DNA of 43,986 nucleotides, taken from assembly GCA_024641005.1 (NCBI GenBank), contig JAHEDX010000032.1, positions 1-43,986 on the forward strand, written 5' to 3'. A program made the position numbers and the translations under genes. The notes beneath the pieces are model-generated. The model worked only from the letters and a program-made list of their open reading frames with translations, had not been told where the DNA came from and searched no databases. This document shows positions 14,169-28,628 of the stretch, piece by piece; positions within the stretch are counted from its first letter, which is position 1; each line of letters begins with the position of its first letter. Source of the stretch: Acidimicrobiaceae bacterium. Lineage in GTDB: Bacteria > Actinomycetota > Acidimicrobiia > Acidimicrobiales > Ilumatobacteraceae.

Positions 14169-14178
14169 GTTTTTCCCT

Positions 14179-14206
14179 GACTTTCGTGATCGGACTTTCG
14201 TGATCG
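14179..14206. repeat. 14-bp tandem direct repeat upstream of the ACAD-like gene
   Basis: GACTTTCGTGATCG occurs twice without a gap, at 14179-14192 and 14193-14206, 11-38 bp upstream of the ACAD-like start codon. It lies in the 5' leader or promoter and could be a second regulator site. It is unrelated in sequence to the 15-bp operator boxes. Confidence 0.85.
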
Positions 14207-14238
14207 CTCGTTGATGGCGTGGGCTATGGTAGCCCATT

Positions 14239-14272
14239 GTTCCATACGTGAACACTTGTGCGCATTACGCAC
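14239..14272. promoter_or_regulatory. Composite operator 1 (two 15-bp boxes, 4-bp spacer)
   Basis: The left box GTTCCATACGTGAAC is at 14239-14253, the spacer is ACTT, and the right box GTGCGCATTACGCAC is at 14258-14272. Both fit GTNC-N7-GNAC. The site is 71 bp upstream of the ACAD-like gene (minus) and 124 bp upstream of the SDR gene (plus), so it could control both. A small hairpin, GGGCTA/TAGCCC at 14221-14235, sits between the site and the ACAD-like gene. Regulator binding is inferred from recurrence at five other promoters and from similarity to PcaR-type boxes. Confidence 0.8.
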
Positions 14273-14395
14273 ACTGCGGTCAACTCGCAGCTTCGAGGGG
14301 TCGCCGGCGAGACGGCCACGCTGGCATGCTGTGGAGCGAGCACCAGACGATCGCAGCACGACCGTCGCAGCAACTCTCGAACTGGAGATCCACCC

Positions 14396-15148
14396 ATGAA
14401 GACCGTTCTGATCACCGGCGCCGGAAGTGGCTTCGGCCGCGGCGCCGCGATCGCGCTCGCCGCCCGTGGCCATCACGTCATCGCGGCCGTGTACGACGCC
14501 CAGCAACAGACCGAACTGTCCGGCGCCCACCCCGAGCTCACCGTCGTGGTCCTCGACATCACCGATCCCGACGCCGTCGCCATGGTCGACCAGTGGGACA
14601 TCGACGTCCTGCTCAACAACGCCGGCTTGGGGCAGACCGGTCCGCTCAGCCGAATTCCCCTCGAGTCCGTGCGACGGGTGTTCGAGGTCAACGTGTTCGG
14701 CACGCTCGCGATCACGCAGCGCGTGGCGAGGCAGATGAAGGCTCGCCGTTCGGGCCGCATCCTGATCGTCTCATCGGTCGCCGGTCTGCTGGCCGGGCCC
14801 GGCTCGGGGCCCTACTCGATGACCAAGCACGCGCTGCAGGCGATGGGTTCGGCATTGCGGGCCGAGCTGGCTCCGCTCGGCATCGACGTCGCGTTGATCA
14901 ATCCGGGTCCGTTCGCCACCGGATTCAACGATCGGATGGCCAACGATCCGGGCCCATGGTTCGATCCGGCGACCGCCGAACCGGAGGAGCTGGCGTTCAT
15001 GAATCAGCTCAAGCAGAGGATCACTGTCGGCCAGCTCGACCCGGCCGAGGTCGTCAAGGTCTACGTCGACTTGGTCGAGGCAGAGTCGACCCAGCTCGTC
15101 AATCTGATTCCCAGCGACATCATCGAGCGCATCACCGGCTCCCACTGA
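14396..15148 (+). CDS. Short-chain dehydrogenase/reductase (SDR)
   Basis: The 250-residue classical SDR begins MKTVLITGAGSGFGRGAAIA, giving the dinucleotide-binding TGxxxGxG at 7-14. NNAG follows near residue 79, the catalytic Ser in LIVSSVAG near 126, and the Y-x3-K pair in GPYSMTKHA near 140. It should oxidise or reduce an alcohol/carbonyl substrate with NAD(P). ATG 14396 has GGAG about 8 bases upstream. Earlier in-frame starts overlap the operator at 14239-14272 and add a non-conserved leader. It is divergent from the ACAD-like gene and convergent with the intradiol dioxygenase. The substrate is unknown. Confidence 0.9.
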   Translation: MKTVLITGAGSGFGRGAAIALAARGHHVIAAVYDAQQQTELSGAHPELTVVVLDITDPDAVAMVDQWDIDVLLNNAGLGQTGPLSRIPLESVRRVFEVNVFGTLAITQRVARQMKARRSGRILIVSSVAGLLAGPGSGPYSMTKHALQAMGSALRAELAPLGIDVALINPGPFATGFNDRMANDPGPWFDPATAEPEELAFMNQLKQRITVGQLDPAEVVKVYVDLVEAESTQLVNLIPSDIIERITGSH

Positions 15149-15159
15149 CCGTCACTCGA

Positions 15160-15185
15160 GATGCGGCATCGGGATGCGGCATCGG
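15160..15185. repeat. 13-bp tandem repeat with self-complementary units
   Basis: GATGCGGCATCGG is repeated at 15160-15172 and 15173-15185 in the gap between the convergent SDR and dioxygenase genes. Each unit contains the inverted GATGC/GCATC. It may help end transcription but is not a convincing terminator on its own. Confidence 0.8.
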
Positions 15186-15205
15186 GCAACGAGCAACGGG
15201 ATCGA

Positions 15206-16021
15206 TCAGTTCGGTTCGAGTACGAAGTCATAGTTCACGACACCCTGTGACATGTCGACGATCAATGACTCGCGCACTCCGAACACCGCGTCGGAATCGA
15301 GATACTCCGACTCCTGGTCGAACAGGTGGGTGGTGATCGGCTTGTAGCCGTCCGCGCTGACCACCATGTGGGTGTGAGCCGGGCGCCAGGCGTGCCGGCC
15401 GTTGGCCGTGAGCATCGCGCCGACCGGGCCGTCGAAGGGCACCGAGTACGCGATCGGACGCACCGTCTGGTACGAGAACTTGCCGTCGGCGGCGGTGATG
15501 AACCGACCACGCATGTTCATCGGCGTCTGATCGGGGTCCTGCACGTCGTACAAGCCGTTCGCCGCGTTCTGCCACACGTCGAGCATCGCTCCCTCGATCG
15601 GCTCGCCGTCGAGATTGCGAACCGTTCCGCTGAGCGTGAGTGGACTGCCACCCTGGTCGTCGATGACGATCGACTCGCCCATCTCCTTGATCGCTGCGTC
15701 GGCGATGTGGAACGGTCCGAACACGGTCGGGTCCGTCGTGCCCTCGGCGGCGTCCTGGTTGATCATCTCGATCAGCATCGAGAACCCCAGGGTGTCGGAC
15801 ATCAGGATGAACTCCTGTCGCTGCTCGTCGCACATCTGGCCGACAGCGGTGAGGAAGCCGATCCCTGCGAACCATTCCTCGCGGGTGAGCCCGACCTCCT
15901 CGGCGAACGCGTAGAGATGCTTGATCGCGGCGCGGGTGATCTCGCCGACCCTGGCGTTCACCGGATTGGCATATGCCTCGAGAGCTTCGGTGAGATGGTC
16001 GGCAGTGGAGAATGAGGCCAT
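15206..16021 (-). CDS. Intradiol ring-cleavage dioxygenase, hydroxyquinol 1,2-dioxygenase type
   Basis: The 271-residue protein has an N-terminal helical dimerisation domain (about 20-95) and a catalytic beta-sandwich. The four non-haem Fe(III) ligands are all present: Tyr158 (GLYDVQDP), Tyr192 (AYSVPFDGP), His216 and His218 (WRPAHTHMV). Their spacing agrees with hydroxyquinol and catechol 1,2-dioxygenases. Hydroxyquinol cleavage gives maleylacetate, which the reductase at 31181 would use, so hydroxyquinol is preferred over catechol; this is inference from context. ATG 16021 is chosen, with an in-frame alternative at 16063. The composite operator at 16138-16171 lies 117 bp upstream and is shared with the divergent cysteine hydrolase. 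Confidence 0.88.
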   Translation of the reverse strand: MASFSTADHLTEALEAYANPVNARVGEITRAAIKHLYAFAEEVGLTREEWFAGIGFLTAVGQMCDEQRQEFILMSDTLGFSMLIEMINQDAAEGTTDPTVFGPFHIADAAIKEMGESIVIDDQGGSPLTLSGTVRNLDGEPIEGAMLDVWQNAANGLYDVQDPDQTPMNMRGRFITAADGKFSYQTVRPIAYSVPFDGPVGAMLTANGRHAWRPAHTHMVVSADGYKPITTHLFDQESEYLDSDAVFGVRESLIVDMSQGVVNYDFVLEPN

Positions 16022-16137
16022 GGGGGCGTTGCTCGTTTCGGGTGAGGGCGCCGAGCCGACCATCGGGGTCCGGTGGGTGGCGGCGGCGCGGCCTGCGGTG
16101 GAGGACTGAACCGTGATGTTGGACGTTCTTCGATGTT

Positions 16138-16171
16138 GTACGTTCTTCGCACATGCGTGCGAACATCGAAC
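16138..16171. promoter_or_regulatory. Composite operator 2 (two 15-bp boxes, 4-bp spacer)
   Basis: The left box GTACGTTCTTCGCAC is at 16138-16152, the spacer ATGC, and the right box GTGCGAACATCGAAC at 16157-16171. Read on the minus strand, the right box is GTTCGATGTTCGCAC. A degenerate third copy, GGACGTTCTTCGATG, lies just upstream at 16121-16135. The site sits between the divergent intradiol dioxygenase and cysteine hydrolase genes. The only ATG available for the hydrolase begins at 16153, inside the spacer. Confidence 0.8.
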
Positions 16172-16953
16172 AACAGTCTGATCCTGGAGCCAGTGCGCTG
16201 TCAAACGACCGTGCCCGATCGCAGCAGGCCGTTGCGCAGGCCGGCGCGCCGGAAGAGAGGTCGCCGGACCTCTCGCCCGACGTGGTCGATGCGATCATCG
16301 GGGCCCGCGGGCAACTGAACGTCGTCGGCGAGCTCAGTGGACCGTCGACCGCGCTCGTGGTGATCGACATGCAGAACTTCTTCGTCGCCCCCGGTGCAGC
16401 GCTCGAAGTGGCGGCGGCCCGCGACATCGTGGCCAACATCAATCGGCTCGCCGCAGCGATGCGCACGGCTGGTGGAACGGTCGCCTGGATCCGGATGACG
16501 TTCGAGCCCGACGAGTTGTCCGACAACTGGACGGCGTTCCTGCCCGTGAACGGTGGACCCGACGGAGCCGGAATGTTCAGTGCCATCGAGCCGGGGCGGT
16601 CGGGGCACGAACTCTGGCACCTGCTCGACGTGAACGGTTCCGATCTGGTCGTGAACAAGCGGCGCTTCAGCGCCTTCATCCAAGGTTCGTCCGACCTGCA
16701 GGCACAGCTCGACGAACGCGGCGTCGATACCTTGATCATCGTCGGCACCCTCACCAATGTGTGCTGCGAGTCGACAGCCCGCGACGCGATGATGTTGAAC
16801 TACCGCGTGGTCATGGTGGACGACGCGACGGCAACGCTCAACGAACGGGCACATCGCGCGGCCCTCGACAACGTGGCGATGTTCTTCGGAGAGGTCCAGA
16901 CGAGCGAACGGGTCGCGACGATGCTCGCCACCGGCTCGAAGGTGCGGCGATGA
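16153..16953 (+). CDS. Isochorismatase-family cysteine hydrolase
   Basis: The protein has the catalytic triad of this family: Asp in ALVVIDMQNFFVAPGAA near residue 74, Lys in DLVVNKRRFSAF near 169, and Cys in LTNVCCESTARDA near 203. Members hydrolyse amides, carbamates or vinyl ethers. ATG 16153 gives 266 residues; the first ~40 are not conserved, but the family-typical DVVDAIIGARGQL segment begins only after them. The sole other start, GTG 16282, would trim part of that segment. ATG 16153 lies inside the operator spacer, so the transcript may be leaderless or the true start different. The LLM gene follows after 13 bp. Confidence 0.83.
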   Translation: MRANIEQQSDPGASALSNDRARSQQAVAQAGAPEERSPDLSPDVVDAIIGARGQLNVVGELSGPSTALVVIDMQNFFVAPGAALEVAAARDIVANINRLAAAMRTAGGTVAWIRMTFEPDELSDNWTAFLPVNGGPDGAGMFSAIEPGRSGHELWHLLDVNGSDLVVNKRRFSAFIQGSSDLQAQLDERGVDTLIIVGTLTNVCCESTARDAMMLNYRVVMVDDATATLNERAHRAALDNVAMFFGEVQTSERVATMLATGSKVRR

Positions 16954-16966
16954 GCAAGGAAGCACG

Positions 16967-17872
16967 ATGAGCAAGATGCAGGTCGGCGTGGTCTTCTCGC
17001 AGGCCGACAGTGGCACCGACCCGGATGCCCTGCGTCGCTGGGTGCGGCGGGCCGAGGAAGCGGGCTTCGAGCACCTGTTGGCCTACGACCACGTCCTCGG
17101 CGCCAGCGCCGAGCGACTCGGACCCGGACCGTTCGGCGCGTTCGACACCCCGGCCTACACCAACGAGCACACCTTCCACGAGATCCTCACGTTGTTCGCG
17201 CACTTCGCGGCGATCACCGAGACGATGGAGTTCGTCACGAGCGTGCTCGTGCTGCCACAGCGTCAGACCGCTCTGGTCGCCAAGCAGATCGCCACGCTCG
17301 ACCTGCTGTCGGGCGGCCGTATCCGCCCGGCGGTCGGTGTCGGCTGGAACTTCGCCGAGTACCAAGGACTCGGGGTCGACTTCGGCGCCCGCACGAGGCT
17401 GCTCGAGGAACAGATCGACGTACTGCGGCTGCTGTGGACCGAACAGCTCGTCGACTTCGACGGCGAGTTCCATCATCTACGCGGCGTCGGTATCAACCCG
17501 TTGCCGGCCCACCCGATCCCGATCTACATCGGCAGCGGGGCCGCCGAGCCGGTGCTGCGCCGCGTCGCCCGCAAAGCAGACGGATGGATGCCGCTGCTGA
17601 TCCCGGGGCTCGACGAGATCACACTCGTCGACGCGGTGCGGCGCCTGCGAGAGATCTGCGACGAGGTCGGCCGCGACCCGGCGACCATGCCGATTCACGC
17701 CAGGGTCTACCTGGGCGACGGCTGGCAGGCCGGCGTCGAGCAAGCACTCGACCTCGGTGTCGACAAGCTCTCGTTCGGATTCAACCGTCTGGCCAATCCC
17801 GGGCACACGCACGAGCAGCACCTCGAGGCGGTGCTGGCCGCCAAGCCCGAACTCGACGCGCTCGTCGGCTGA
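16967..17872 (+). CDS. LLM class flavin (probably F420)-dependent oxidoreductase
   Basis: This 301-residue luciferase-like TIM barrel starts MSKMQVGVVFSQ. It shows RAEEAGFEHLLAYDHVLGAS at about 26-45, VTSVLVLPQRQTALVAKQIA near 88, LSGGRIRPAVGVGWNFAEY near 110 and PIPIYIGSGAAEPVLRR near 180. Its length and the LPQRQ/GVGW pattern fit the F420-dependent actinobacterial subgroup. ATG 16967 has AAGGAAG upstream. It lies 13 bp after the cysteine hydrolase and probably shares its transcript and operator. Its role in the aromatic cluster is not shown; reduction or oxygenation of an intermediate is possible. Confidence 0.87.
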   Translation: MSKMQVGVVFSQADSGTDPDALRRWVRRAEEAGFEHLLAYDHVLGASAERLGPGPFGAFDTPAYTNEHTFHEILTLFAHFAAITETMEFVTSVLVLPQRQTALVAKQIATLDLLSGGRIRPAVGVGWNFAEYQGLGVDFGARTRLLEEQIDVLRLLWTEQLVDFDGEFHHLRGVGINPLPAHPIPIYIGSGAAEPVLRRVARKADGWMPLLIPGLDEITLVDAVRRLREICDEVGRDPATMPIHARVYLGDGWQAGVEQALDLGVDKLSFGFNRLANPGHTHEQHLEAVLAAKPELDALVG

Positions 17873-17900
17873 CCTATCTGATTGCTCGGGCAGGTCGGCC
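17867..17900. terminator. Bidirectional terminator between LLM and VWA genes
   Basis: GGCTGACCT at 17867-17875 pairs with AGGTCGGCC at 17892-17900, with one G-U pair, around a 16-base loop. It spans the LLM stop codon and precedes the end of the convergent VWA gene. No U-tract is visible. Confidence 0.6.
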
Positions 17901-17903
17901 GGG

Positions 17904-19286
17904 TTACAGCATGTCGAGCACGGCGTCGGCGAGCTGGCCGAGCGTACGCACTTCGTAGACCGCCGAACAGTGTGTCGCGTAGGCCGCTTGCGCCGAGTCG
18001 GTCGTGTTCCACTGCGAGCGCGGCTCCGGATTGAGCCAATACACGCGGCGGACCCTGCTGGCGATCTCGGCCACGAGATCGGCTCGGGCAGGGCGGTAGT
18101 TGCCGCGTGCATCACCGGCGATGACCACCGTGCTCCGGCCGGTGAGATCGTTGCGGCCATACCGTTCCCAGAAGCGCTCGAACACCGTGCCGTAATCACT
18201 GTGCCCATCGGCGCCGATCACCCGGCCCGATTGGAGCAGCTGCCACGGCTCGATGACCCCGGTCGCCGAAGCGAGTATCGCGCTGATGTCGTCGATCTCG
18301 TCGACGAACGCAAAGCTGCGCGTCGCCGCCAATTCCTCTGCCAGCGCGGAGATCAGCGCCAGCGTGAAACTCGAGAAGTCGGCGACAGATCCCGACACGT
18401 CGCACAGCACGAAGAGTTCGGGGCGATGAGCGCTGGGGCGTCGGTGTACCAACTCGATCGGCACACCACCCGATCGCAACGACCGATGAATCGTGCGTCG
18501 CAGGTCGACGCGCCCGCTCGAACGAGAGTGGTGGCGACGTCGCAGCTGGGCGGCGAGGCGCCGGGCGAGCGGCCGGATCGCGGCGCGGATCTCCTCCAGT
18601 TCGCCGGCCGAGGCGCGTGCCAACTCGACGTCGAAGGGGTCGGCGACCCGACCAACCGTCTCGCTGTCGGGATCGTCGTCGAACGGCACCGTCGCGAGCC
18701 GGGCGCGGATCTCCTCGACGATCATCTTGCGCAGTGCCTCGACGCCGGCCTCGAGTTCGGAGCGCACGACCTCCTCGCCTTCGGCGCGTGATCGCTTGAT
18801 CGCAGCCGCCAGGAGCGCGGCGAGATCGATCGCCCGCAGTGTGCGATACAGGTGGTACCGCTCGGTACGCGGGCCCTCGTCGATCCCGGCATGGCGATCG
18901 ACGATCTCCTCGACCAGCAACCGCCGGTCGACGTCGGAGTCGCGATCGAGGGCGCGATCCAACCGGTCGTCGATGAGCACGCCGTCGGCGTGGGTCGTCG
19001 TCGCTGCCCTCCGCGGTGTGGCACTGCGGGCCGGGAAGTACCGATCGAACAGCTCGGCGAAGATCGCGTGATGGTGTGCCTGCTTCACCAGCGTCGATGC
19101 CAACATCGTGCGCAGCTCACTCCGCTGTACGAGATCGATGTGGGCCAGCGCGGTGGCGGCGTCGAGCACCTCGGTCACCGAGATGACCACACCGCGTCGC
19201 CGGAGATCGGCGACGAGTCGCTCGATCTGCCCCCAGGTTGCGGTGCCCGTCGTGACGGTCGTGGGCGTGGAAAGCGGCATGGACAT
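17904..19286 (-). CDS. CoxE-like von Willebrand factor A domain protein
   Basis: About 460 residues. The N-terminal half is helical and charged, with EEIVDRHAGIDEGPRTERYH and many Arg/Glu stretches. The C-terminal half is a VWA domain with the metal-ion-dependent adhesion motif DVSGS (LFVLCDVSGSVADFSSF, near residue 296), a DYGT Thr (GHSDYGTVF) and VVIAGDARGNYRPA. This layout is that of CoxE proteins, which normally work with a MoxR AAA+ ATPase in metal-cofactor insertion or complex remodelling. No MoxR gene is in the window. The start is uncertain (ATG 19286 or 19280, or GTG 19325). The operator at 19345-19378 lies upstream and could control it with the divergent VOC dioxygenase. Confidence 0.8.
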   Translation of the reverse strand: MSMPLSTPTTVTTGTATWGQIERLVADLRRRGVVISVTEVLDAATALAHIDLVQRSELRTMLASTLVKQAHHHAIFAELFDRYFPARSATPRRAATTTHADGVLIDDRLDRALDRDSDVDRRLLVEEIVDRHAGIDEGPRTERYHLYRTLRAIDLAALLAAAIKRSRAEGEEVVRSELEAGVEALRKMIVEEIRARLATVPFDDDPDSETVGRVADPFDVELARASAGELEEIRAAIRPLARRLAAQLRRRHHSRSSGRVDLRRTIHRSLRSGGVPIELVHRRPSAHRPELFVLCDVSGSVADFSSFTLALISALAEELAATRSFAFVDEIDDISAILASATGVIEPWQLLQSGRVIGADGHSDYGTVFERFWERYGRNDLTGRSTVVIAGDARGNYRPARADLVAEIASRVRRVYWLNPEPRSQWNTTDSAQAAYATHCSAVYEVRTLGQLADAVLDML

Positions 19287-19344
19287 CGATGGGGAACACG
19301 GTGCCGCGCCTTGACAGGAGGGCACCTCGCCTGCGTAGTCTCGC

Positions 19345-19378
19345 GTTCACAAAATGAACACTTGTGCGAATATCGCAC
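19345..19378. promoter_or_regulatory. Composite operator 3 (two 15-bp boxes, 4-bp spacer)
   Basis: The left box GTTCACAAAATGAAC is at 19345-19359, the spacer ACTT, and the right box GTGCGAATATCGCAC at 19364-19378. The right box is a near-perfect palindrome. The spacer is the same as in operator 1. The site is 63 bp upstream of the VOC dioxygenase and about 59 bp upstream of the divergent CoxE-like gene. Confidence 0.85.
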
Positions 19379-19440
19379 AAGTGCGCGTAGTTCCGCAAGT
19401 GCGAGATCGGCAGCGCCGAACCGAGCAGAGGAGAGAGACG

Positions 19441-20406
19441 ATGTCAGATCCACAGCACGCCGTGTCCCGACACCACCACATGACCTTGTGCGTCGGTGAC
19501 GCCCAAGAGGACTACGACTTCCACACCCAGGTCCTCGATCTGAAGTCGGTCAAGAAGACCGCTCTGTACGACGGCGTGGTGCCGATCTACCACTTCTATT
19601 ACGGCAATGACATGGGCGAAGAGTCGACCCTCATCACCTGCTTTCCCATGCGTCAATCGGGCCGCATGGGCCGCCGTGGCGCCGGCCAGATCAGCAAGAT
19701 CAGCCTGTCGGTTCCGACCGACGCGCTCGCGTTCTGGAACGCCCGACTCGTCAACCACGGCCTCGACGTGGTCGAGTCCGAGCGCTTCGGCGAGAAGGTG
19801 CTGCAGTTCGCACATCCGTGCGGCCTCGACTACGAGCTGGTCGGAGTTTCCGGAGACGGCCGCGTGCCGCACACGGGCGGCGAGGTCGCTCGCGAGTACG
19901 GCATCCGCGGCACCCACGGCATCACGGTGTCGGTCCACGATTTCGAGGGTTCGATGGAGTTCATGCAGGACGGCTGGAACGGCACCCGGACCGCCGAGGA
20001 CGGCGACTACATCCGCTACGAGGTCGGCAACGGTGGTACCGGCACGATCGTCGATTTCAAGCGTGAGCCCGATCTCCCGATCGGCAGCTGGACCTTCGGC
20101 GAGAACACCGTGCACCACTGCGCGTTCCAGGTCGAGTCGCTCGACATCCAGACCGAGGTGAAGGCCTATCTCGAAGGTCTCGGATACACCGACGTGTCCG
20201 ACCGCAAGGATCGCGGCTATTTCGACTCGGTCTACGTCAGGACGCCGGGCGGAGCCTTGTTCGAGGCGACGGTGTCCAAGCCCGAAGGCTTCCTCATCGA
20301 CGAGCCGTACGACCAGCTCGGCCACGACTTCCAGATCCCTCCGGTTTTCGCTGACAAGAAGGACTGGATCATGGACTATCTCGACAAGGTCGAGTACGCC
20401 CGCTGA
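19441..20406 (+). CDS. VOC-fold ring-cleaving dioxygenase of the LinE/PcpA/MhqO (hydroquinone) type
   Basis: This 321-residue protein has two vicinal-oxygen-chelate modules. It resembles the MhqO/LinE/PcpA group in RHHHMTLCVGDAQEDYDFHT, YHFYYGNDMGEESTLITCFP and GRRGAGQISKISLSVP. The Fe(II) ligands are predicted as His13, His226 (NTVHHCAFQV) and Glu275 (GALFEATV). Enzymes of this group open hydroquinones, in contrast to catechol-cleaving relatives, and give 4-hydroxymuconic semialdehyde or, from chlorohydroquinones, maleylacetates. ATG 19441 follows a strong GAGGAGAGA ribosome site; earlier starts overlap the operator. It is transcribed alone, and a separate operator-bearing promoter precedes the next gene. 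Assignment to hydroquinone rather than another para- or ortho-diol is inference supported by HapCD and maleylacetate reductase downstream. Confidence 0.82.
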   Translation: MSDPQHAVSRHHHMTLCVGDAQEDYDFHTQVLDLKSVKKTALYDGVVPIYHFYYGNDMGEESTLITCFPMRQSGRMGRRGAGQISKISLSVPTDALAFWNARLVNHGLDVVESERFGEKVLQFAHPCGLDYELVGVSGDGRVPHTGGEVAREYGIRGTHGITVSVHDFEGSMEFMQDGWNGTRTAEDGDYIRYEVGNGGTGTIVDFKREPDLPIGSWTFGENTVHHCAFQVESLDIQTEVKAYLEGLGYTDVSDRKDRGYFDSVYVRTPGGALFEATVSKPEGFLIDEPYDQLGHDFQIPPVFADKKDWIMDYLDKVEYAR

Positions 20407-20474
20407 TACCCGCCAGGATGGTCGACAATATTGCGCACAATCAGGCTTGACCGCCGGCCCGTCCGATCGCTAGT

Positions 20475-20508
20475 GTGCACTTTGCGCACTCGTGTGCGCA
20501 AAGTGCAC
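20475..20508. promoter_or_regulatory. Composite operator 4 (perfect 15-bp inverted repeat, 4-bp spacer)
   Basis: GTGCACTTTGCGCAC at 20475-20489 and its exact reverse complement GTGCGCAAAGTGCAC at 20494-20508 flank TCGT. The symmetry extends one base outward on each side. The site is 105 bp upstream of the substrate-binding-protein gene. It is the most symmetric of the six copies. Between it and the gene, ATCGTGAACACCA is repeated directly at 20565-20577 and 20582-20594. Confidence 0.85.
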
Positions 20509-20612
20509 ATTCGTTGGGTGGGGGCCCCGTTCGTCGTCGGCCTACAACCCTGCGAGCGCACATCATCGTGAACACCACCAAATCGTGAACACCAAGGGCC
20601 GAGGGGGTCGCA

Positions 20613-22076
20613 ATGCGAAGTAGGGAAACATCATCCGCGAGCATCATCAGGAGGTCCGTCATCGGACTTGCTGTGTTGTCGCTGGTCGCTGCCGCCTGCG
20701 GCGGTGACGACGACGATTCCGGAACGCCGGCCGTGACCGACGCACCGACCGCGACCGACGCACCGGACACGACCGACGCACCGGACACGACCGACGCACC
20801 GGATACGACCGACGCACCGGACACGACCGACGCACCTGGCGAGATGACCGGCATGATCGTGCAACCGGGTGTCTGTGGCCTCGGTAACGGCGAAGCAGCT
20901 ACCGGGACCCCCATCAAGCTCGGTGGCGCCGCCACCAATATCCCGGGCGTCGACTTCACCTGGATCCCGAAGATGGCCAAGATCTACTTCGACTGTGTGA
21001 ACGAGAACGGTGGCATCTACGGCCACCCGATCGAGTACTCCTATGAAGACGGCGCCCCCGACCCGGCGGTGTGGTCGGCGATCGCGACCAAGCTCGTCGA
21101 GACCGACAAGGTGCTGGCGATCGTCGGTAACACGAGCCTGCTCGAGTGCGACGTGAACGGCCAGTACTACGCCGACCACGGGTACCACCCGATCATCGCA
21201 GGCGTCGCCCCCGGTTGCTTCCTCAGCGACCAGTGGTCGGCCGTCAACATGGGCCCCTACTACTCGAACCTCGGTGGTGCACAAGCTGCGCTCCGCGCCG
21301 GTGCGACGGGCAAGCTCGTCGTCGCTTCGCCCGATCAGCCGGGCATGGACTTCAACAACACCTCGGTGCAGGACATCGCCATCCAGGAGGGCCTCGACTT
21401 CGAGGGCATCCTCGAGACCGTGCCGATCGCCGACCCGGCCGGATTCGCTCAGCGCCTCGTGCAGGCTGCCGGTGAGGGTGGTGGCGTCGTACTCAACTTC
21501 ACCGGCCCAACGGTGCTCCCGCTGCTGCAGGCGATCTCCGAGCAGGGCCTCGTCGATTCCGTGATCTGGGCCAGCTCGACGCCCCCGAACGACCCGAGCG
21601 TCTCGGCAGCCCTCAAGGACTGCTGCGGCACCGACTGGGACGGCAAGTTCTTGATCAACGCCGAGTTCAACGTGCTCGATTCGGGCCTGCCCGACAACAA
21701 CAAGATGATCGAGTTGCACGACGCCGCCGGCGCCGACTTCCCGATCTCAGCGTTCAGCCAGTTCGGCTACGTGATCGGCAAGTGGACGACCGAAGCCCTG
21801 CTCCGCATGGGTGAGGGTGCCGATTACACCGTCGAGACGGTCAACCAGGCGATCTTCGATCTCAAGGACGCCGAGAGCGACATGATCTGCAAGCCCTGGT
21901 ACTACACCAACGGCTCCAGTGCCAACGTCTCCAACAACACCGACCGCACGGTCACACCGCAGGACGGCAACATGGTCCAGGTGGAGGATTGCTTCGAGAT
22001 CGAGGCAATCGCCAAGGACGATGCGAAGGGGATCAACGGCAACCCACTCGAGGAGATCCGCTCCAACGAGGGCTGA
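20613..22076 (+). CDS. ABC transporter substrate-binding lipoprotein, branched-chain amino acid/aromatic type
   Basis: The 487-residue precursor has a basic N-terminus, a hydrophobic core and the lipobox LVAAAC, so Cys29 is the lipidation site. Residues about 42-74 are a low-complexity tether of repeated TDAPDT units. The rest is a type I periplasmic-binding fold of the Leu/Ile/Val family: GVDFTWIPKMAKIYFDCVNENG, LAIVGNTSLLECDVNG, GKLVVASPDQPGMDFNNTS. Such proteins also bind aromatic acids and amides. Operator 4 upstream and the surrounding catabolic genes suggest the aromatic growth substrate as ligand, which is inference. ATG 20613 follows GAGGGGG. A strong hairpin separates it from the permease genes. 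Confidence 0.9.
   Translation: MRSRETSSASIIRRSVIGLAVLSLVAAACGGDDDDSGTPAVTDAPTATDAPDTTDAPDTTDAPDTTDAPDTTDAPGEMTGMIVQPGVCGLGNGEAATGTPIKLGGAATNIPGVDFTWIPKMAKIYFDCVNENGGIYGHPIEYSYEDGAPDPAVWSAIATKLVETDKVLAIVGNTSLLECDVNGQYYADHGYHPIIAGVAPGCFLSDQWSAVNMGPYYSNLGGAQAALRAGATGKLVVASPDQPGMDFNNTSVQDIAIQEGLDFEGILETVPIADPAGFAQRLVQAAGEGGGVVLNFTGPTVLPLLQAISEQGLVDSVIWASSTPPNDPSVSAALKDCCGTDWDGKFLINAEFNVLDSGLPDNNKMIELHDAAGADFPISAFSQFGYVIGKWTTEALLRMGEGADYTVETVNQAIFDLKDAESDMICKPWYYTNGSSANVSNNTDRTVTPQDGNMVQVEDCFEIEAIAKDDAKGINGNPLEEIRSNEG
20736..20837 (+). repeat. Tandem 15-bp coding repeat (TDAPD units)
   Basis: A 15-bp unit, ACCGACGCACCGGAC with minor changes, is repeated about six times inside the substrate-binding-protein gene. 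It encodes the Thr-Asp-Ala-Pro tether that follows the lipidated cysteine. Copy number is likely to vary between strains by slippage without shifting frame. Confidence 0.9.
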
Positions 22077-22105
22077 TCACCCCCAACCCGTTCCACAACC
22101 AGCGA

Positions 22106-22133
22106 GGGGCCGGCCGGTCGTCCGGTCGGCCCC
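22106..22133 (+). terminator. Strong hairpin between binding-protein and permease genes
   Basis: GGGGCCGGCCGG at 22106-22117 pairs with CCGGTCGGCCCC at 22122-22133 (one G-U pair) around TCGT. Located 30 bp after the binding-protein stop, it probably acts as a partial terminator or mRNA 3' stabiliser. That would keep binding-protein levels above those of the membrane subunits. Confidence 0.7.
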
Positions 22134-22190
22134 GTTCGCATTCAGACCCACAGGTCCCCTGCTCACCCACTGCGTCCACCGAGGAGCCGC

Positions 22191-23066
22191 ATGCCTGATT
22201 TCAAGCCGTACATCGTGATCGGACTCGCACTGGGTGGCGTCTATGCCATGAGCGGGGTCGGTCTCGTGGTGCTCTACCGCACCACCGGCGTCCTCAATCT
22301 TTTCTACGGCGCCATTGGAGCGCTCGGTTCCCTGGTCGCTTGGCAGCTGATCAATGAGCACGGCTGGAACAATTATGTCTCGTTCGGCACGGCGATCCTG
22401 CTCAGCGGGGTGATCACCTTCGCCTACGGATGGTTCTTCGGCCCACCGTTCGCTGCTCGTGATCCGCTCGTGAAGGCCAGTGCCTCGTTGGGATTCGCCC
22501 TCATCCTGCTCGGCTTCATGCAGTGGTACTGGACCGCCGACGTGCGGACCCTCGCCCTGCCGACCACCCGCATGCAATACGTGAACGGCTGGCTGCGTAT
22601 CAACTGGACGCAAGGCATCGGCATTCTCTTCCCCATCCTGATCGCCTTCATCACGGTGGCGTTCCTCAATCGCACCAAGGTCGGCACGGCGATGCGGGCG
22701 CTCGCTGACAATCGCGACAACGCAGCGCTGCTCGGGGTCCCGGTGCGCAAGGTCGAGGCCTTTGCGTGGACAGGGTCGGGCATCCTGTTCGGCATCTCCG
22801 GGTTGCTGCTCGCCAGCCTCGTGTCGATGGAGATCGCAGCGCTCACGTTCACGCTTCCGGTGGCAGCGTTGGCAGCAGCGCTGATCGGCAAGGTCGAGTC
22901 GCTCAGCGTCACGGTGATCGCAGCGTTCCTGATCGGTCTCATCCAGTCCTCGCTGGGGGCGATGAACTCCGTCGCCCAGTACCGAAACACCACCCCGTTC
23001 GTTGTCGCGATCATCGTGCTCGTGTATTTCGGCTGGCGTGGCCAAACCGAACGGCGGGTCGCATGA
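22191..23066 (+). CDS. ABC transporter permease, LivH-like
   Basis: The 291-residue membrane protein has about eight spans and the LivH family start IVIGLALGGVYAMSGVGLVVLYRTTGVLN. The family's cytoplasmic coupling segment is near residue 165 (NRTKVGTAMRALADNRDNAALLGVPVRKVEA). It forms half of the translocation channel for the substrate bound by the 20613 lipoprotein. ATG 22191 follows GAGGAG. Its stop overlaps the next ATG (ATGA). Confidence 0.92.
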   Translation: MPDFKPYIVIGLALGGVYAMSGVGLVVLYRTTGVLNLFYGAIGALGSLVAWQLINEHGWNNYVSFGTAILLSGVITFAYGWFFGPPFAARDPLVKASASLGFALILLGFMQWYWTADVRTLALPTTRMQYVNGWLRINWTQGIGILFPILIAFITVAFLNRTKVGTAMRALADNRDNAALLGVPVRKVEAFAWTGSGILFGISGLLLASLVSMEIAALTFTLPVAALAAALIGKVESLSVTVIAAFLIGLIQSSLGAMNSVAQYRNTTPFVVAIIVLVYFGWRGQTERRVA

Positions 23067-24124
23067 CGCACGCGAACCCCACCGACAACCGACTTCCGTC
23101 GATTCTCACGGCGGCGACGCCACGACGCGTCATCACCTTCGTCGCGTTCGTACTGATCGCACTGCTCCTGCTACCCATTGTGCTCTCCGCGTTCTGGATG
23201 AAGATCATGTTCGAGATGGCCGCGTACTCCCTGGTCACCCTGGGCCTCGGACTGCTCGTCGGCCGGACCGGCATCTACTCGCTGTGCCAGGTCCCGATGA
23301 TGGCTGCGGGTGCTTGGATCGCGCTTCGGGTTCACTACCTCGTCGACCTTCCCTTTCCGCTGCTGCTCCTCATCAGCGGCTTGCTGACGGGCCTGCTCGG
23401 CATCGTGATCGGGCTACCTGCCATGCGGCTGAGCGGGTTGTACCTCGCGCTGGTCACACTGATGGCAGCCGGGGCGATCACCTTGCTGCTCACCGTGGTG
23501 AAGTTCCCGAACGGCGGTGACGGCTTCTGGGGATTCGACAAGCTCAACTCGTCAGGTCAGAACATCCTGCCGCGGCCCTCGAGCGCAACAAGCGACATCG
23601 CCTTCTACCGATACACCGTGGTCGTCGCTGCGATCGGCTTCCTCGTCGCCGCCATCCACATCACCGGCAAGCCGGGTCGAGCCTGGGCCTCGATCCGTCA
23701 GTCCGAGGTCACGGCGGTTTCGGCGGGGGTCAACACCACGCTGTACAAGCTCTGGGCCTTTGCGCTGTCTGCCGCGGTCACCGGCGTCGCCGGCGGGCTG
23801 ATCGTCGCCGGCACCGGGGTCACCACCAACCAGTTCCCGGTCGAGCAATCGATCACCTTGCTCGCCGTGGTGCTGCTCGGCGGTGTTTACAATCTCTGGG
23901 GTGCCGTATTGGCGGCATTCTTCCTCAGGGTGTTCCCGCAGATCCTCGACAAGAAGCTCGGCCTTCCCGTCGAAGTCCTGACGATGCTGTTCGGAGTCGG
24001 GGTGATCTCCACGCTCGCGATGCAGCCCAAGGGTGTCGTCGAGGATCTCACCAACCTCGGTCGATTCGTCGGTAGCAAGTTCGCCCGGAGCGAACGGGCC
24101 GAGCACGAAGGAGTGGCCACATGA
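23063..24124 (+). CDS. ABC transporter permease, LivM-like
   Basis: The 353-residue product is the second channel subunit. It has a hydrophobic N-terminus, MAAYSLVTLGLGLLVGRTGIYSLCQVPMMAAGAWIA, the LivM motif GLPAMRLSGLYLALVTL near residue 118, and the coupling segment GRAWASIRQSEVTAVSAGVN near 208. About eight to nine spans are visible. ATG 23063 overlaps the LivH-like stop, and its own stop overlaps the first ATPase start, so all four core subunits are translationally coupled. Confidence 0.92.
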   Translation: MTHANPTDNRLPSILTAATPRRVITFVAFVLIALLLLPIVLSAFWMKIMFEMAAYSLVTLGLGLLVGRTGIYSLCQVPMMAAGAWIALRVHYLVDLPFPLLLLISGLLTGLLGIVIGLPAMRLSGLYLALVTLMAAGAITLLLTVVKFPNGGDGFWGFDKLNSSGQNILPRPSSATSDIAFYRYTVVVAAIGFLVAAIHITGKPGRAWASIRQSEVTAVSAGVNTTLYKLWAFALSAAVTGVAGGLIVAGTGVTTNQFPVEQSITLLAVVLLGGVYNLWGAVLAAFFLRVFPQILDKKLGLPVEVLTMLFGVGVISTLAMQPKGVVEDLTNLGRFVGSKFARSERAEHEGVAT

Positions 24125-24843
24125 TCGTCATCGACTCGCTCACCGTTCGCTTCGGCGGCGTCACTCCGATCAACGACATGAACCTCACCATGACCGCCGG
24201 CAGCAACGGATTGATCGGCCCGAACGGAGCCGGCAAGACGACCTTCTTCAACGTGTTGAGTGGCTTCGTCCGTCCCGCCGAGGGCACGGTGACCGTCTTC
24301 GGTGACGAACTGTTGCCGATGGCTGACTTCAAACGGGTGCGCTGGGGCGTGCGTCGCACGTTCCAGACCGAGCAGGCGATCGCCGACCTCACCGTGTACG
24401 AGAACGTGCTGCTCATCGAGGAGCATTCTGGTCGCAAGTCGTCGACCCGTCGCGCCGACGTCATCGAAGCCGTCGAGTTCGTCGGGCTGGGCAACCAGAT
24501 CGGCCGAGCGGTCGGCACGCTCGGAGCAGCCGAACGTCGCCTCGTCGAGGTGGCCCGCGCGATCGTCGGGCATCCGAGACTGGTACTGCTCGACGAACCC
24601 GCCGCCGGCCTCCCCGAGGACGAAACAGAGAAATTGGGCGAGATCATCAAACAGATCCCCGACCGAACCGGAGCGATGGTGGTGCTGGTCGACCACGACA
24701 TGGAGCTGGTGTCCGCGACATGCGACGAGGTCGCGGTGCTCGACTTCGGGAGCGTCATCGCCTCGGGAAAGACACAAGCGGTGCTGGCCGACCCACTGGT
24801 GATGCGGGCCTATCTCGGCGATGACGAGCGAGTCCAGGCATGA
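24121..24843 (+). CDS. ABC transporter ATPase, LivG-like
   Basis: The 240-residue ATPase has Walker A GPNGAGKTTFF near residue 35, LivG-type RVRWGVRRTFQTEQAIADLT with its Q-loop, a degenerate signature GAAERRLVEVARAI near 137, Walker B LVLLDEPAAGLPEDE and switch His in VLVDHDMELV. The signature reads LGAAER rather than LSxGQ, a modest departure. It pairs with the LivF-like ATPase that follows, with a 4-base overlap. Confidence 0.92.
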   Translation: MIVIDSLTVRFGGVTPINDMNLTMTAGSNGLIGPNGAGKTTFFNVLSGFVRPAEGTVTVFGDELLPMADFKRVRWGVRRTFQTEQAIADLTVYENVLLIEEHSGRKSSTRRADVIEAVEFVGLGNQIGRAVGTLGAAERRLVEVARAIVGHPRLVLLDEPAAGLPEDETEKLGEIIKQIPDRTGAMVVLVDHDMELVSATCDEVAVLDFGSVIASGKTQAVLADPLVMRAYLGDDERVQA

Positions 24844-25574
24844 GTGGCCAAACAGGTGCACATCCGAGCCTGGTCATCACCGGGCTGAACGTCGAACGCG
24901 GCGAACGCCCCGTGTTGCACGACGTCTCGATCACGATTCCGCCGGGCGAGGTCACCACCTTGCTCGGCCCGAACGGGGCCGGCAAGAGCACCCTGGTGCT
25001 GGCGGTCGGCGGCGCGCTGCGCCCGACCGACGGAACCGTCGCCTTGGGCGACGCCGACCTCACCCGCGCCCGGCCCGAGAAGGTTCGCGGGGCGGGTGTC
25101 GCCGTCGTTCCCGAAGGCCGGCGATTGTTGCCGAACCTGACGGTTGCCGACAACCTTCGTGTTGCGACCTTTTCGTTGTCGCGCGACGACGCCACTGCCG
25201 GGATCGACCGGGCACTCGAGCTATTCCCCGAGTTGAAGAAACGCTTCGAGACGACCGCCCGATCGCTGTCGGGTGGCGAGCAGCAGATGGTCGTGCTCGC
25301 CCAGGCACTGGCATCTCGCCCCAAGGTCCTGCTGGTCGACGAGTTGTCGCTCGGCCTCGCCCCGGTGATCGTGAAACGGCTCATGCCGGTGATCGAGGAG
25401 GTAGCTGCCTCGGGTGTCGGCGTGCTGCTGATCGAACAGTTCGCCCATGTTGCACTGGCACTCGCCAACAACGCCTACGTGATCGAGGGCGGCCGAATCC
25501 AGTACTCGGGCACCGCTCAGGCGCTCAAGGACGACCCGACGCTGCTGCAGAAGGCATACCTCCTCGGGGCGTGA
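24840..25574 (+). CDS. ABC transporter ATPase, LivF-like
   Basis: The 244-residue ATPase has Walker A GPNGAGKSTLVLAVGG, the LivF-typical GVAVVPEGRRLLPNLTVADNL, signature LSGGEQQM near 144, Walker B VLLVDELSLGLAP and a LLIEQFAHVALALA switch region where Gln-Phe replaces the usual His, as in LivF proteins. It completes the importer. Its stop is overlapped by a GTG that could start the next gene. Confidence 0.92.
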   Translation: MSGQTGAHPSLVITGLNVERGERPVLHDVSITIPPGEVTTLLGPNGAGKSTLVLAVGGALRPTDGTVALGDADLTRARPEKVRGAGVAVVPEGRRLLPNLTVADNLRVATFSLSRDDATAGIDRALELFPELKKRFETTARSLSGGEQQMVVLAQALASRPKVLLVDELSLGLAPVIVKRLMPVIEEVAASGVGVLLIEQFAHVALALANNAYVIEGGRIQYSGTAQALKDDPTLLQKAYLLGA

Positions 25575-25579
25575 CTCGC

Positions 25580-25990
25580 ATGACGATCGAATTCGACCAG
25601 CGTGCGATCGACCTCGGAATCGTGATCACCGACAGTGATACTTCGCTCGCGTTCTACCGCGACCTGCTCGGGATGCAACACGAAGCCGACATCCCGATGC
25701 CGATCGGCGGTGGCGGCGTCATGCACCGGCTGCGATGCGGCGACACGCTGATCAAGCTGGTCAGGTTCGACAGCGTTCCGGTTCCCCGTCCGGAGGGTGG
25801 CGGCATTCCGGGTGCGACGGGGTATCGCTACTTCACGATCCACATGCACAACATCGAGGCGGTTCTCGCCGCCGTCGTCGCGTCCGGCATGACCGTATCG
25901 GTGCCGCTCACCGAGGTCCGACCCGGCGTCACGATTGCGATCGTGGAGGATCCCGACGGGAACCTCGTCGAGTTCCTCCAGGTCGGCTGA
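25580..25990 (+). CDS. VOC (glyoxalase/dioxygenase superfamily) protein
   Basis: The 136-residue single-module VOC protein shows IDLGIVITDSDTSLAFYRDLLGM at the N-terminus, YRYFTIHMHNIEAVLAAV near 82 and EDPDGNLVEFLQVG at the end. The Glu of VEFLQ and the His of FTIHM are in metal-ligand positions. The first-module His of many members is Gly here (IDLGIVI), so activity is uncertain. It is the last gene of the importer operon. GTG 25571, overlapping the previous stop, is an alternative start. An isomerase or lyase role on the imported compound is a guess. Confidence 0.8.
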   Translation: MTIEFDQRAIDLGIVITDSDTSLAFYRDLLGMQHEADIPMPIGGGGVMHRLRCGDTLIKLVRFDSVPVPRPEGGGIPGATGYRYFTIHMHNIEAVLAAVVASGMTVSVPLTEVRPGVTIAIVEDPDGNLVEFLQVG

Positions 25991-26046
25991 CGGCCGACAG
26001 GATCGTCGCGACAACCGGCCCGCTGCAGCACCGCGGCCCGACGATC
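25982..26046. terminator. Nested bidirectional terminators between convergent genes
   Basis: A first hairpin, GTCGGC 25982-25987 with GCCGAC 25993-25998, spans the VOC stop codon. A second pairs GATCGTCG 26001-26008 with CGACGATC 26039-26046, the latter overlapping the stop of the minus-strand dehydrogenase. Each probably ends one of the two converging operons. Confidence 0.6.
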
Positions 26047-27100
26047 AGGGGTGCACGATGATCTTCACGTGGGCGTCGCGGTTGTTCATCAGCTCTTCGA
26101 TCCCACCGGTGACGATCTCGTCGAACGAGATCCGTCCGGTGATCAGCGGTGCGACATCGATCGTGCCGGCGGCGAGCGCCTCGATGACCTCGGTGTGGTC
26201 GTTGCAATAGGCGCAGCTGGCGGTCAGGTTCGATTCTTTGAACAACATCGAGAACATGTCGAACTCGACAGGGTGCTCCCAGAGTGCGATGTTGACGACC
26301 TGCCCCCTGGGCCGTACCGACGCGAGCGCCAACTCGATCGTCCTGGCGTTCCCGCCGGCATCGAACGCCACGTCGACGCCTTGCGGGAACTCGGCGGCGA
26401 GCACCGCGGCGACATCGTCGATGTTGGGATCGAGCACGAGGTCGGCGCCGAGTTCTGCAGCTTTGCGCTTGCGGGTCGCCGTCAGCTCGACCACCACCAC
26501 CCGGCCGGCGCCCTGCGCCTTCACTGCCAGCAGCGTGACCAACCCGATCGGGCCGGCCCCCACGATCAGTACGGATTCGCCGCCACGGAGATCGGCCATC
26601 TTGGCGGCGTGCCATCCCACGGCGAGCGGTTCGATCAGCGCCGCGACATCGGTGGGGATGTTGTCGGGCAGAACGTGCACCATGTAGCCCGGAACGACGG
26701 AGTACTCGGCAAGTCCGCCGCCGTACCCGCTGAGCCCGTGAAAGCCGAGCTGTGGACACAGGTTGTAGTGGCCACTGGTGCAGGTGGGGCAGTCGTTGTC
26801 GCGGATGATCGGCTCGACAGCGACCTTGTCGCCGGCCTTCACACCGAGAACACCCTCTCCGACCTCGACGACCGTGCCGGCATATTCGTGGCCCAGAACG
26901 ATCGGGACGGTCTCGCCGGTGATCGGGTGCGGCTCCCCCACACTCGGGATCGTCTCGGGGCCCACGAGGTACTCGTGGACGTCGCTGCCACAGATGCCAC
27001 ACCATTCAGGCGCGATCTTCACGAACCCGGGAAGACACATCGGCTCGGGAATGTCATCGATGCGGACATCGCGATTGCCGTGGTACCGGACCGCTCTCAT
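26045..27100 (-). CDS. Zinc-dependent medium-chain alcohol/polyol dehydrogenase
   Basis: The 351-residue enzyme resembles the 2,3-butanediol/sorbitol dehydrogenase group: WCGICGSDVHEYL with zinc ligand Cys37, GHEYAGTVVEVG with His71-Glu72, and the nucleotide fold VLIVGAGPIGLVTLLAVKAQG near 180. In the structural zinc loop (DNDCPTCTSGHYNLC) the first Cys of the usual four is Asp, leaving Cys104, Cys107 and Cys115. It lies 17 bp downstream of the IclR gene on the same strand and is probably co-transcribed with it, under operator 5. A role in oxidising an alcohol intermediate is inferred from context. Confidence 0.88.
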   Translation of the reverse strand: MRAVRYHGNRDVRIDDIPEPMCLPGFVKIAPEWCGICGSDVHEYLVGPETIPSVGEPHPITGETVPIVLGHEYAGTVVEVGEGVLGVKAGDKVAVEPIIRDNDCPTCTSGHYNLCPQLGFHGLSGYGGGLAEYSVVPGYMVHVLPDNIPTDVAALIEPLAVGWHAAKMADLRGGESVLIVGAGPIGLVTLLAVKAQGAGRVVVVELTATRKRKAAELGADLVLDPNIDDVAAVLAAEFPQGVDVAFDAGGNARTIELALASVRPRGQVVNIALWEHPVEFDMFSMLFKESNLTASCAYCNDHTEVIEALAAGTIDVAPLITGRISFDEIVTGGIEELMNNRDAHVKIIVHP

Positions 27101-27117
27101 TCGCTCGTGGCCTTCCG

Positions 27118-27876
27118 TCAGCGCTTCCCGAGTGCGTCGTTCAGTGCCGCTGCCGCCCTCAACAGAGCCGGGAGGAACACTTCATCGATGTCTTCGACCG
27201 TGGTGCGTCCGACATGGGTCGACAAGTTGATCGCGGCGATCGCCCGACCAGCCGAATCGCGCAACGGGGCGGCGATCGAGCGCAGGCCGATCTCGAGTTC
27301 CTGATTCACGAGGGCCCATCCTTGGGCACGCACTTTGGCGAACTCGGCTTCGAGCGCGTCGAAGTCGGTGATCGTCAGTTCGGTACGTGGCTCGATCGGC
27401 GTCGGCACCCGCCGATGCAGCTCGTCGAGCGGGAGCTCTGCCAGCAACACCCGCCCCATCGAGGTGCAGTGGGCGGGAAGCCGAGACCCGAGACCCAGGG
27501 CGAGGGTCATGATCCGTGTGGTCGGGACGCGAGCCACGTAGACGACATCAGATCCATCGAGGACCGAGATCGACGACGATTCGTGGACCTCTTCACTGAG
27601 CGCCTCGAGGAACGGTTGGGCGATCTGTTGGATGTTCAACGAGGACAGATAGGCGTAGCCGAGGTCGAGCACCGAAGGCGTGAGCGTGAAGTTCCGACCG
27701 TCGGTCGAGGCGTAACCGAGTGTCGTCAGGGTGAGCAGCAGCCGGCGGGCGGTCGCACGGGTCAGGCCGGTTCGTTTCGCGACTTCCGACAGCGTCTGGT
27801 AGGCGTGGTCGGCATCGAAACTGCGCAGAACGGCGATGCCGCGCTCCAACGATTGGACGTGATCGGCGGTGGTCAT
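27118..27876 (-). CDS. IclR-family transcriptional regulator, PcaR/PobR-like
   Basis: This 252-residue regulator has an N-terminal winged helix: VQSLERGIAVLRSFDADHAY, then LSEVAKRTGLTRATARRLLL as the helix-turn-helix at about 29-48. The C-terminal IclR effector domain starts near residue 75. The VQSLERG start is typical of the PcaR/PcaU/PobR branch, which answers to beta-ketoadipate, protocatechuate or 4-hydroxybenzoate. ATG 27876 is chosen because AGGA lies 6 bases upstream; alternative starts at 27924 and 27933 fall within or beyond the operator. Operator 5 (27897-27930) ends 21 bp from the start, so it is probably autoregulated. It is the best candidate to bind all six composite operators. 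Confidence 0.9.
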   Translation of the reverse strand: MTTADHVQSLERGIAVLRSFDADHAYQTLSEVAKRTGLTRATARRLLLTLTTLGYASTDGRNFTLTPSVLDLGYAYLSSLNIQQIAQPFLEALSEEVHESSSISVLDGSDVVYVARVPTTRIMTLALGLGSRLPAHCTSMGRVLLAELPLDELHRRVPTPIEPRTELTITDFDALEAEFAKVRAQGWALVNQELEIGLRSIAAPLRDSAGRAIAAINLSTHVGRTTVEDIDEVFLPALLRAAAALNDALGKR

Positions 27877-27896
27877 CGGCAGTCCTGGCGAGCGAC

Positions 27897-27930
27897 GTTC
27901 ACTTGACGCACTATTGTTCGCCATACGCAC
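27897..27930. promoter_or_regulatory. Composite operator 5, upstream of the IclR gene
   Basis: GTTCACTTGACGCAC is at 27897-27911, spacer TATT, and GTTCGCCATACGCAC at 27916-27930. The second box matches, outside its central five bases, the GTTCG/CGCAC arms I recall for the Pseudomonas PcaR box. A minus-strand -35-like TTGACT lies at about 27933-27938, so a bound regulator would cover the IclR gene's own promoter. Confidence 0.82.
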
Positions 27931-28033
27931 CAAGTCAAGAACTCGACGGGATGATCATAGGGGGTATCGGCGTGGCCGAGGTCGGCGGTGACCCGCGACT
28001 CGCTTGACCGGTACATCCGTCACGCGACAGAAT

Positions 28034-28067
28034 GTTCACCAGAAGAACGACCGTGCGCATGGCGAAC
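28034..28067. promoter_or_regulatory. Composite operator 6, upstream of the hydroquinone dioxygenase operon
   Basis: GTTCACCAGAAGAAC is at 28034-28048, spacer GACC, and GTGCGCATGGCGAAC at 28053-28067. It ends 27 bp before the GTG start of the small dioxygenase subunit. It should control the ten-gene catabolic operon to 36647. Operators 5 and 6 lie about 100 bp apart in the divergent region shared with the regulator. Confidence 0.82.
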
Positions 28068-28093
28068 AGGTCGACGAACAGAAGGGCCGACTC

Positions 28094-28603: not shown

Positions 28604-28628
28604 GTCCGAGCCACCGCAGGGGAACATC

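Follow-up and report, generated by a model that had tools for sequence, protein, structure and literature searches.

Six candidate tandem operators of a PcaR-like IclR-family regulator in a predicted hydroquinone/beta-ketoadipate gene cluster of an Acidimicrobiaceae bacterium

Suvorova and Gelfand (2021, PMC8222616) described tandem sites of IclR-family regulators in 94 orthologous groups. These consist of two palindromic boxes of the same type whose centres lie 18-22 nt (mainly 19-21) apart, and the layout was related to tetramer binding. Their motifs for PcaR, PcaU, PobR, CatR and others have the form GTNCG-N5-6-CGNAC, and their regulons include AtoDA-type CoA-transferase, Liv transporters and aromatic genes. 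The parts of the main text consulted contain neither a pnpCD regulon nor a fixed 4-bp gap with an abutting -10 box. Both are predicted for the DNA analysed here, a stretch of 43,986 nt from an Acidimicrobiaceae bacterium (assembly GCA_024641005.1, contig JAHEDX010000032.1, forward strand), hereafter called the window. It carries six copies of a 34-bp tandem element in a cluster that, like the regulons of that survey, has CoA-transferase, Liv transporter and aromatic genes, together with pnpCD-like genes and a divergent IclR-family regulator gene (27118-27876).

Other described systems resemble the locus in part. The 15-bp unit of the window matches the box types described for PcaR of Pseudomonas putida and Corynebacterium glutamicum, GTTCGATAATCGCAC and GTTCGC-N3-GCGAAC; the first, given in an earlier note on this DNA, is in print (PMC12455658). 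They are described as single boxes, whereas those of the window are doubled and stand at a hydroquinone-type, not a protocatechuate, cluster. PcaU and PobR of Acinetobacter baylyi share the subfamily model name and the box type, but they use a palindrome plus an external direct half-site (PMC8222616); each of our six sites has two complete palindromes and so lacks this three-box layout. IhtR (Cg3388) of C. glutamicum is an IclR-type repressor that answers to hydroquinone and, going by its description, is divergent from an operon with maleylacetate reductase and catechol 1,2-dioxygenase genes; that operon differs in having an inositol transporter and no pnpCD (PMC7764795). The hydroquinone dioxygenase operon pnpCDEFG of Pseudomonas WBC-3 is likewise under specific control, but by the LysR-type activators PnpR and PnpM (PMC5603801). 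In Sphingobium, an IclR-family PcaR matters for pentachlorophenol fitness (PMC6247019).

The pattern GTNC-N7-GNAC-N4-GTNC-N7-GNAC occurs six times in the window with 0 mismatches (operators 1 to 6, Table 1), and these are its sole exact matches there. The earlier note had the coordinates right, and both arms are present in all 12 of the 15-bp units, two per site. Of the inner bases of the GTNCG-N5-6-CGNAC box, 7 of the 12 units have the G (position 5) and 8 have the C (position 11). The unit centres are 19 nt apart at every site, within the 18-22 nt known for IclR-family tandem sites. Among spacers of 0-59 tested in the window, spacer 4 alone occurs (6 pairs), and it never arose in 100 dinucleotide shuffles, in which spacer 4 was the sole spacer counted. 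Single 15-mers are not enriched (19 observed vs 16.2 in shuffles, standard deviation 4.5), and single-box enrichment was dropped as evidence; the significant feature is thus the fixed pair. The ordinary frequency of single units would suit a compositional accident or a dispersed DNA repeat, but this explanation is hardly credible, since the tandem never appears in shuffles, the six copies vary in their centres and spacers as copies of a single repeat would not, and the operator is kept in relatives.

The earlier note placed the sites in six intergenic regions. Their positions hold, but the regions are fewer: operators 5 and 6 share the divergent iclR/pnpC region, and the first ATG (16153) of an isochorismatase-like frame falls within operator 2. 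Either the true start of this gene is a later codon, or the transcript has almost no leader and operator 2 lies over the start codon. Operators 1, 2 and 3 each lie between divergent genes. The centres of operators 5 and 6 are 137 bp apart, which is about 13 turns at 10.5 bp.

As the earlier note had proposed, the whole genome (4,137,365 bases, 175 contigs) was scanned with an operator model, here a sequence-only 34-bp profile built from the six sites. Ten matches were obtained at E<=10. The six sites themselves account for eight of them (operators 2 and 4 on both strands), one partially overlaps operator 3, and one is a partial match on another contig (11.9 bits, E 1.24). No further full-length site was found among the 150 of 310 first-look candidates that were scored, and within that sample the operator is confined to this cluster.

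The regulator is indeed PcaR-like, as the earlier note held. When the frame 27118-27933 was scanned, the PcaR/PcaU/PobR model gave 322 bits against a curated cut-off of 284.75, and an IclR helix-turn-helix domain and an IclR C-terminal effector domain were recognized. PcaR of P. putida (8eju) matches the regulator strongly in sequence (E 1.3e-65). TtgV, an IclR-family protein that controls solvent efflux, is distant in sequence (phmmer E 2.1e-13). On its operator TtgV forms a tetramer (PDB 2xro, as cited in PMC8222616). In P. putida PcaR succinate is reported to be contacted by Y151, T177, S240, N257 and S259 (PMC12455658). All five residues are identical in the window's regulator (Y113, T138, S200, N217 and S219, counted by hand on the alignment), which makes a dicarboxylate effector plausible.

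Conservation was followed in a family set of 101 genomes (own included), of which a regulator search with a cut-off of E<=1e-40 gave 21. Five genomes besides our own have a regulator copy at 55-58% identity. The 24 regulator loci of this search (own included) span 3.3-3.7 kb each. pnpD is present in five of them (own, L002, L003, L005, L006), and all five hold the exact operator, twice in the own locus and once in each of the others; the remaining 19 have neither pnpD nor an exact operator within their 3.3-3.7 kb. The operator model at E<=0.05 matched seven of the 101 genomes, namely our own, G011, G014, G030, G033, G084 and, partially, G032. G084 was found via the operator; its exact site is flanked by PnpD on one side and, on the other, by a regulator truncated at the end of the contig.

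A second set, the named loci, comprises the best 80 of 568 regulator matches. PnpD stands beside the regulator in six of these, each with the exact operator upstream of the regulator; in 13 of the other 74, an exact site is located no more than 400 bp upstream of it. In all, the operator lies between regulator and pnpD in 10 of 10 regulator-found relatives in which the two adjoin, G084 being an eleventh case. Each of the 11 relatives has one exact operator in the iclR-pnpC region; the window has two.

The whole named loci contain 53 exact 4-spacer sites in 44 of the 80, at most three per locus vs six in the window. Other spacers from 0 to 40 occur no more than once each outside the upstream regions. 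Within these regions, spacer 7 is seen once, and spacers 11 and 30 arise in two Herbidospora loci whose operators are doubled. In these loci (L103, L122), two full 34-bp tandem operators stand at -114 and -69 from the regulator, so that about 79 bp hold four palindromes. Where a site lay away from the regulator (32 cases), adjoining open reading frames (ORFs) were scanned, 53 in all, and 18 of them are CoA-transferases and seven intradiol dioxygenases. The ORFs taken were the longest of at least 120 codons with a start close to the site, on both strands, and one start was used for each; one ORF truncated by a contig end was left out, and some of the ORFs are spurious. The earlier note regarded the doubled arrangement with 19-bp centre spacing as distinctive. 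This claim fails because the tandem layout and the box type are described in PMC8222616 and the exact 15+4+15 arrangement recurs in the 44 named loci, where the spacer survey also speaks against it.

A tree was built of 88 regulators: the window's, those of 7 of the 23 relatives' family loci, and the 80 named ones, with the G084 fragment left out. The 11 pnpD-linked rows (the window and ten relatives) cluster with three further rows in a single group of 14 (support 91/89, not starred). The pnpD label requires 3 changes on the tree vs 10.5 in shuffles, and the nearest rows to the window are Acidimicrobiia and Ilumatobacter. Alternatively, a different regulator, for example another IclR-family protein of the genome, might bind the sites. 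Four further contigs of the genome do have matches to the IclR-family C-terminal domain, and box types are alike across the family (PMC8222616). Nevertheless this is very improbable, as the sites were found at this cluster alone among the candidates scored, one of them immediately precedes the iclR gene, and the operator tracks the regulator orthologues in all ten regulator-found pnpD-linked loci.

Promoter-like elements, taken as consensus matches, were called strict at a score of >=9/12 and a -10 end at -6 to +4 from the operator edge. In the window, operators 6 (+), 3 (+) and 2 (-) have such an element. A promoter scan of positions 14100-28200 with spacers 16-18 gave three elements vs 1.2 in shuffles, which is weak, and the case for a fixed geometry therefore rests on a comparison of 64 exact sites (127 orientations with enough flank). 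A strict element accompanies 23 of these, while 200 shuffles of the flanks gave 0.41 on average and 3 at most; the true significance is lower because related promoters are not independent. A pnpC-facing TTGAC-type -35 and a -10 are present in 11 of 11 relatives, the -10 ending -4 to +1 from the operator edge (scores 8-10/12). The iclR-facing -10 lies within the operator, at +20 in the window and at +17 to +20 (score >=8) in four of the 11 relatives (L002, L047, L072, L073).

Taken together, we consider it quite likely that the six sites are operators of the 27118-27876 regulator, through which it would repress a hydroquinone/beta-ketoadipate regulon and its own gene until relieved by an effector. 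In each operator the two 15-bp palindromes, with a centre spacing of 19 bp, face roughly the same side of the helix, an arrangement that fits binding by two dimers or one tetramer. At the pnpCD, intradiol dioxygenase, VOC and transporter promoters, the operator begins at the -10 end and so covers the expected transcription start; at the iclR promoter it covers the -10 box. Its position over the pnpCD start and over the iclR -10 suggests repression and autorepression, respectively. Repression may be relieved by a pathway compound: a dicarboxylate (beta-ketoadipate or maleylacetate) or, by analogy with IhtR, hydroquinone or hydroxyquinol (1,2,4-trihydroxybenzene) as second candidates.

Several observations weigh against this proposal. 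The promoters are consensus matches, and 41 of the 64 sites, among them operators 1, 4 (score 8) and 5, lack an abutting strict element. The confinement of the operator to the cluster refers to the 150 of 310 candidates scored, and the family scan used stricter filters, with at most 69 candidates scored per genome. In genome G063, whose regulator is 57% identical, there is no exact site; two one-mismatch sites are found just upstream of a thiolase and of the regulator, and its 12.7-kb contig gives no PnpD match. The partial match in G032 (L036; 18 bits, not exact) occurs without a regulator at E<=1e-40 and is unexplained. S219 is not constant: of the relatives, L003 and L006 have G at this position, and L007 and L013 have T. 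Hydroquinone is assigned as the substrate from one Pfam domain and context, and the scan, which covered part of the window's ORFs, revealed no semialdehyde or other aldehyde dehydrogenase. The sign of control is a further point. According to its title, a 1999 paper reportedly found that P. putida PcaR both activates and represses, in each case through binding at -35 and -10, and the title of another paper has GenR doing both. PcaR proteins, those of P. putida and P. stutzeri among them, can do either, according to where their site lies: that of P. putida activates from upstream positions, and that of P. stutzeri is reported to repress when its box overlaps the -10 or lies downstream (PMC12455658). 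The regulator could accordingly be an activator or a dual regulator that remains on the operators and that, once its effector is present, would recruit or remodel RNA polymerase. We regard this as unlikely, given that the operator starts at the -10 end in all 11 pnpD-linked relatives, a placement at which the P. stutzeri protein turns repressor, and that IhtR is a repressor (PMC7764795).

Within the repressor proposal, a more specific evolutionary scenario can be put forward tentatively. In Acidimicrobiia and two Alphaproteobacteria metagenome-assembled genomes, a group of the PcaR lineage that is linked to hydroquinone dioxygenase may use a fixed cassette (TTGAC-type -35, N17/18, and a -10 abutting 15+4+15) in which one operator would shut both divergent promoters via the pnpCD start and the iclR -10. 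In the present genome the cassette might have spread to further promoters, and the shared operator might now exist as two copies, which at about 13 helical turns would be in phase and able to loop.

The genes facing away from the regulator (the pnpC-like ORF and the PnpD, CoA-transferase, iron-containing dehydrogenase and thiolase genes; Table 1) would fit a hydroquinone-type operon. In such a pathway hydroquinone is converted via hydroxymuconic semialdehyde, maleylacetate and beta-ketoadipate to succinyl-CoA and acetyl-CoA. The roles of PnpCDEF in it have been described (PMC5603801). From its context, the iron-containing dehydrogenase would fit maleylacetate reductase.

Table 1. Coordinates of the regulator, candidate operators, cluster genes and promoter-like elements in the window
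Feature	Position	Strand	Remarks
IclR-family regulator, PcaR/PcaU/PobR subfamily	27118..27876	-	TIGR02431, PF01614, PF09339
Operator 1	14239..14272		between HsaA-like flavin monooxygenase (-) and SDR (+)
Operator 2	16138..16171		between intradiol dioxygenase (-) and isochorismatase-like gene (+)
Operator 3	19345..19378		upstream of VOC-family dioxygenase-like gene (+) and VWA/CoxE gene (-)
Operator 4	20475..20508		upstream of Liv-type ABC transporter; two 15-mers are perfect mutual reverse complements
Operator 5	27897..27930		upstream of iclR
Operator 6	28034..28067		upstream of pnpCD
pnpC-like small subunit	28094..28603	+	named by position and conservation; tblastn match in 11/12 relatives' loci; no family in Pfam scan
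PnpD, hydroquinone 1,2-dioxygenase large subunit-like	28629..29603	+	PF18191, E 5.6e-51
CoA-transferase subunits A and B, 3-oxoadipate CoA-transferase-like	29614..31184	+	PF01144; B start ~30417; TIGR02429 and TIGR02428 under cut-off
Iron-containing alcohol dehydrogenase, maleylacetate-reductase-like	31178..32266	+	PF25137, PF00465 on frame 31094-32266; start estimated
Thiolase	32263..33444	+	PF00108, PF02803 on frame 31909-33444; start estimated
Intradiol dioxygenase, catechol/hydroxyquinol type	15206..16021	-	PF00775, PF04444; TIGR02465 under cut-off
HsaA-like flavin-dependent monooxygenase	12996..14168	-	PF08028; NF045629 under cut-off
VOC-family, extradiol-dioxygenase-like	19441..20406	+	PF00903
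Liv-type ABC transporter (binding protein, two permeases, two ATPases)	20613..25574	+	PF13458, PF02653, PF00005; NCBIfam LivG/LivF-type matches under cut-off
Weak promoter-like TTGATG-N18-CATTGT	14211..14240	+	-10 overlaps first 2 bases of operator 1; by eye, below scan thresholds
Promoter-like TTGACA-N18-CAGACT	16175..16204	-	faces intradiol dioxygenase; -10 ends -4 from operator 2
Promoter-like TTGACA-N19-TAGTCT	19311..19341	+	-10 ends -4 from operator 3
Promoter-like TTGACC-N18-TAGTGT	20447..20476	+	score 8/12; -10 overlaps operator 4 by 2 bases
Promoter-like TTGACT-N17-AATAGT	27910..27938	-	faces iclR; -10 within operator 5
Promoter-like TTGACC-N18-CAGAAT	28004..28033	+	faces pnpC; -10 directly abuts operator 6

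Some further genes of the window were noted. An isochorismatase-like gene and an F420/LLM-type monooxygenase gene form a pair at 16153-17872 that is distantly RutB/RutA-like (models under curated cut-offs). The VWA/CoxE-like gene at 17904-19280 recurs by several pnpD-linked clusters (L039, L043, L046, L054, L073, L078) and has no obvious role. An MMPL-family protein is encoded at 36838-39168, and an MFS protein fused to a cyclic-nucleotide-binding domain at 42208-43845. The ORFs 14248-15336, 15228-16757, 17757-18791 and 27988-28632 were dropped as genes, being unlikely frames with no family match.

In the part of the literature that was searched, no IclR-controlled pnpCD cluster and no IclR operator of Acidimicrobiia were found. 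The box type and the tandem layout (PMC8222616) and a hydroquinone-answering IclR-type repressor, IhtR (PMC7764795), are already known; the predicted pnpCD regulon, of which that search gave no description, the tight promoter-operator geometry and the unusual six-copy expansion remain as new. The control described for the pnpCD pathway in Pseudomonas WBC-3 is of LysR type, and an IclR-type repressor is predicted for the pnpCD pathway here. The locus offers a concrete, testable regulon for hydroquinone/beta-ketoadipate catabolism in the little-cultured Acidimicrobiia. In general, the tight operator-promoter geometry is a usable rule to predict the targets, and the sign of control, of PcaR-like regulators in Actinomycetota.

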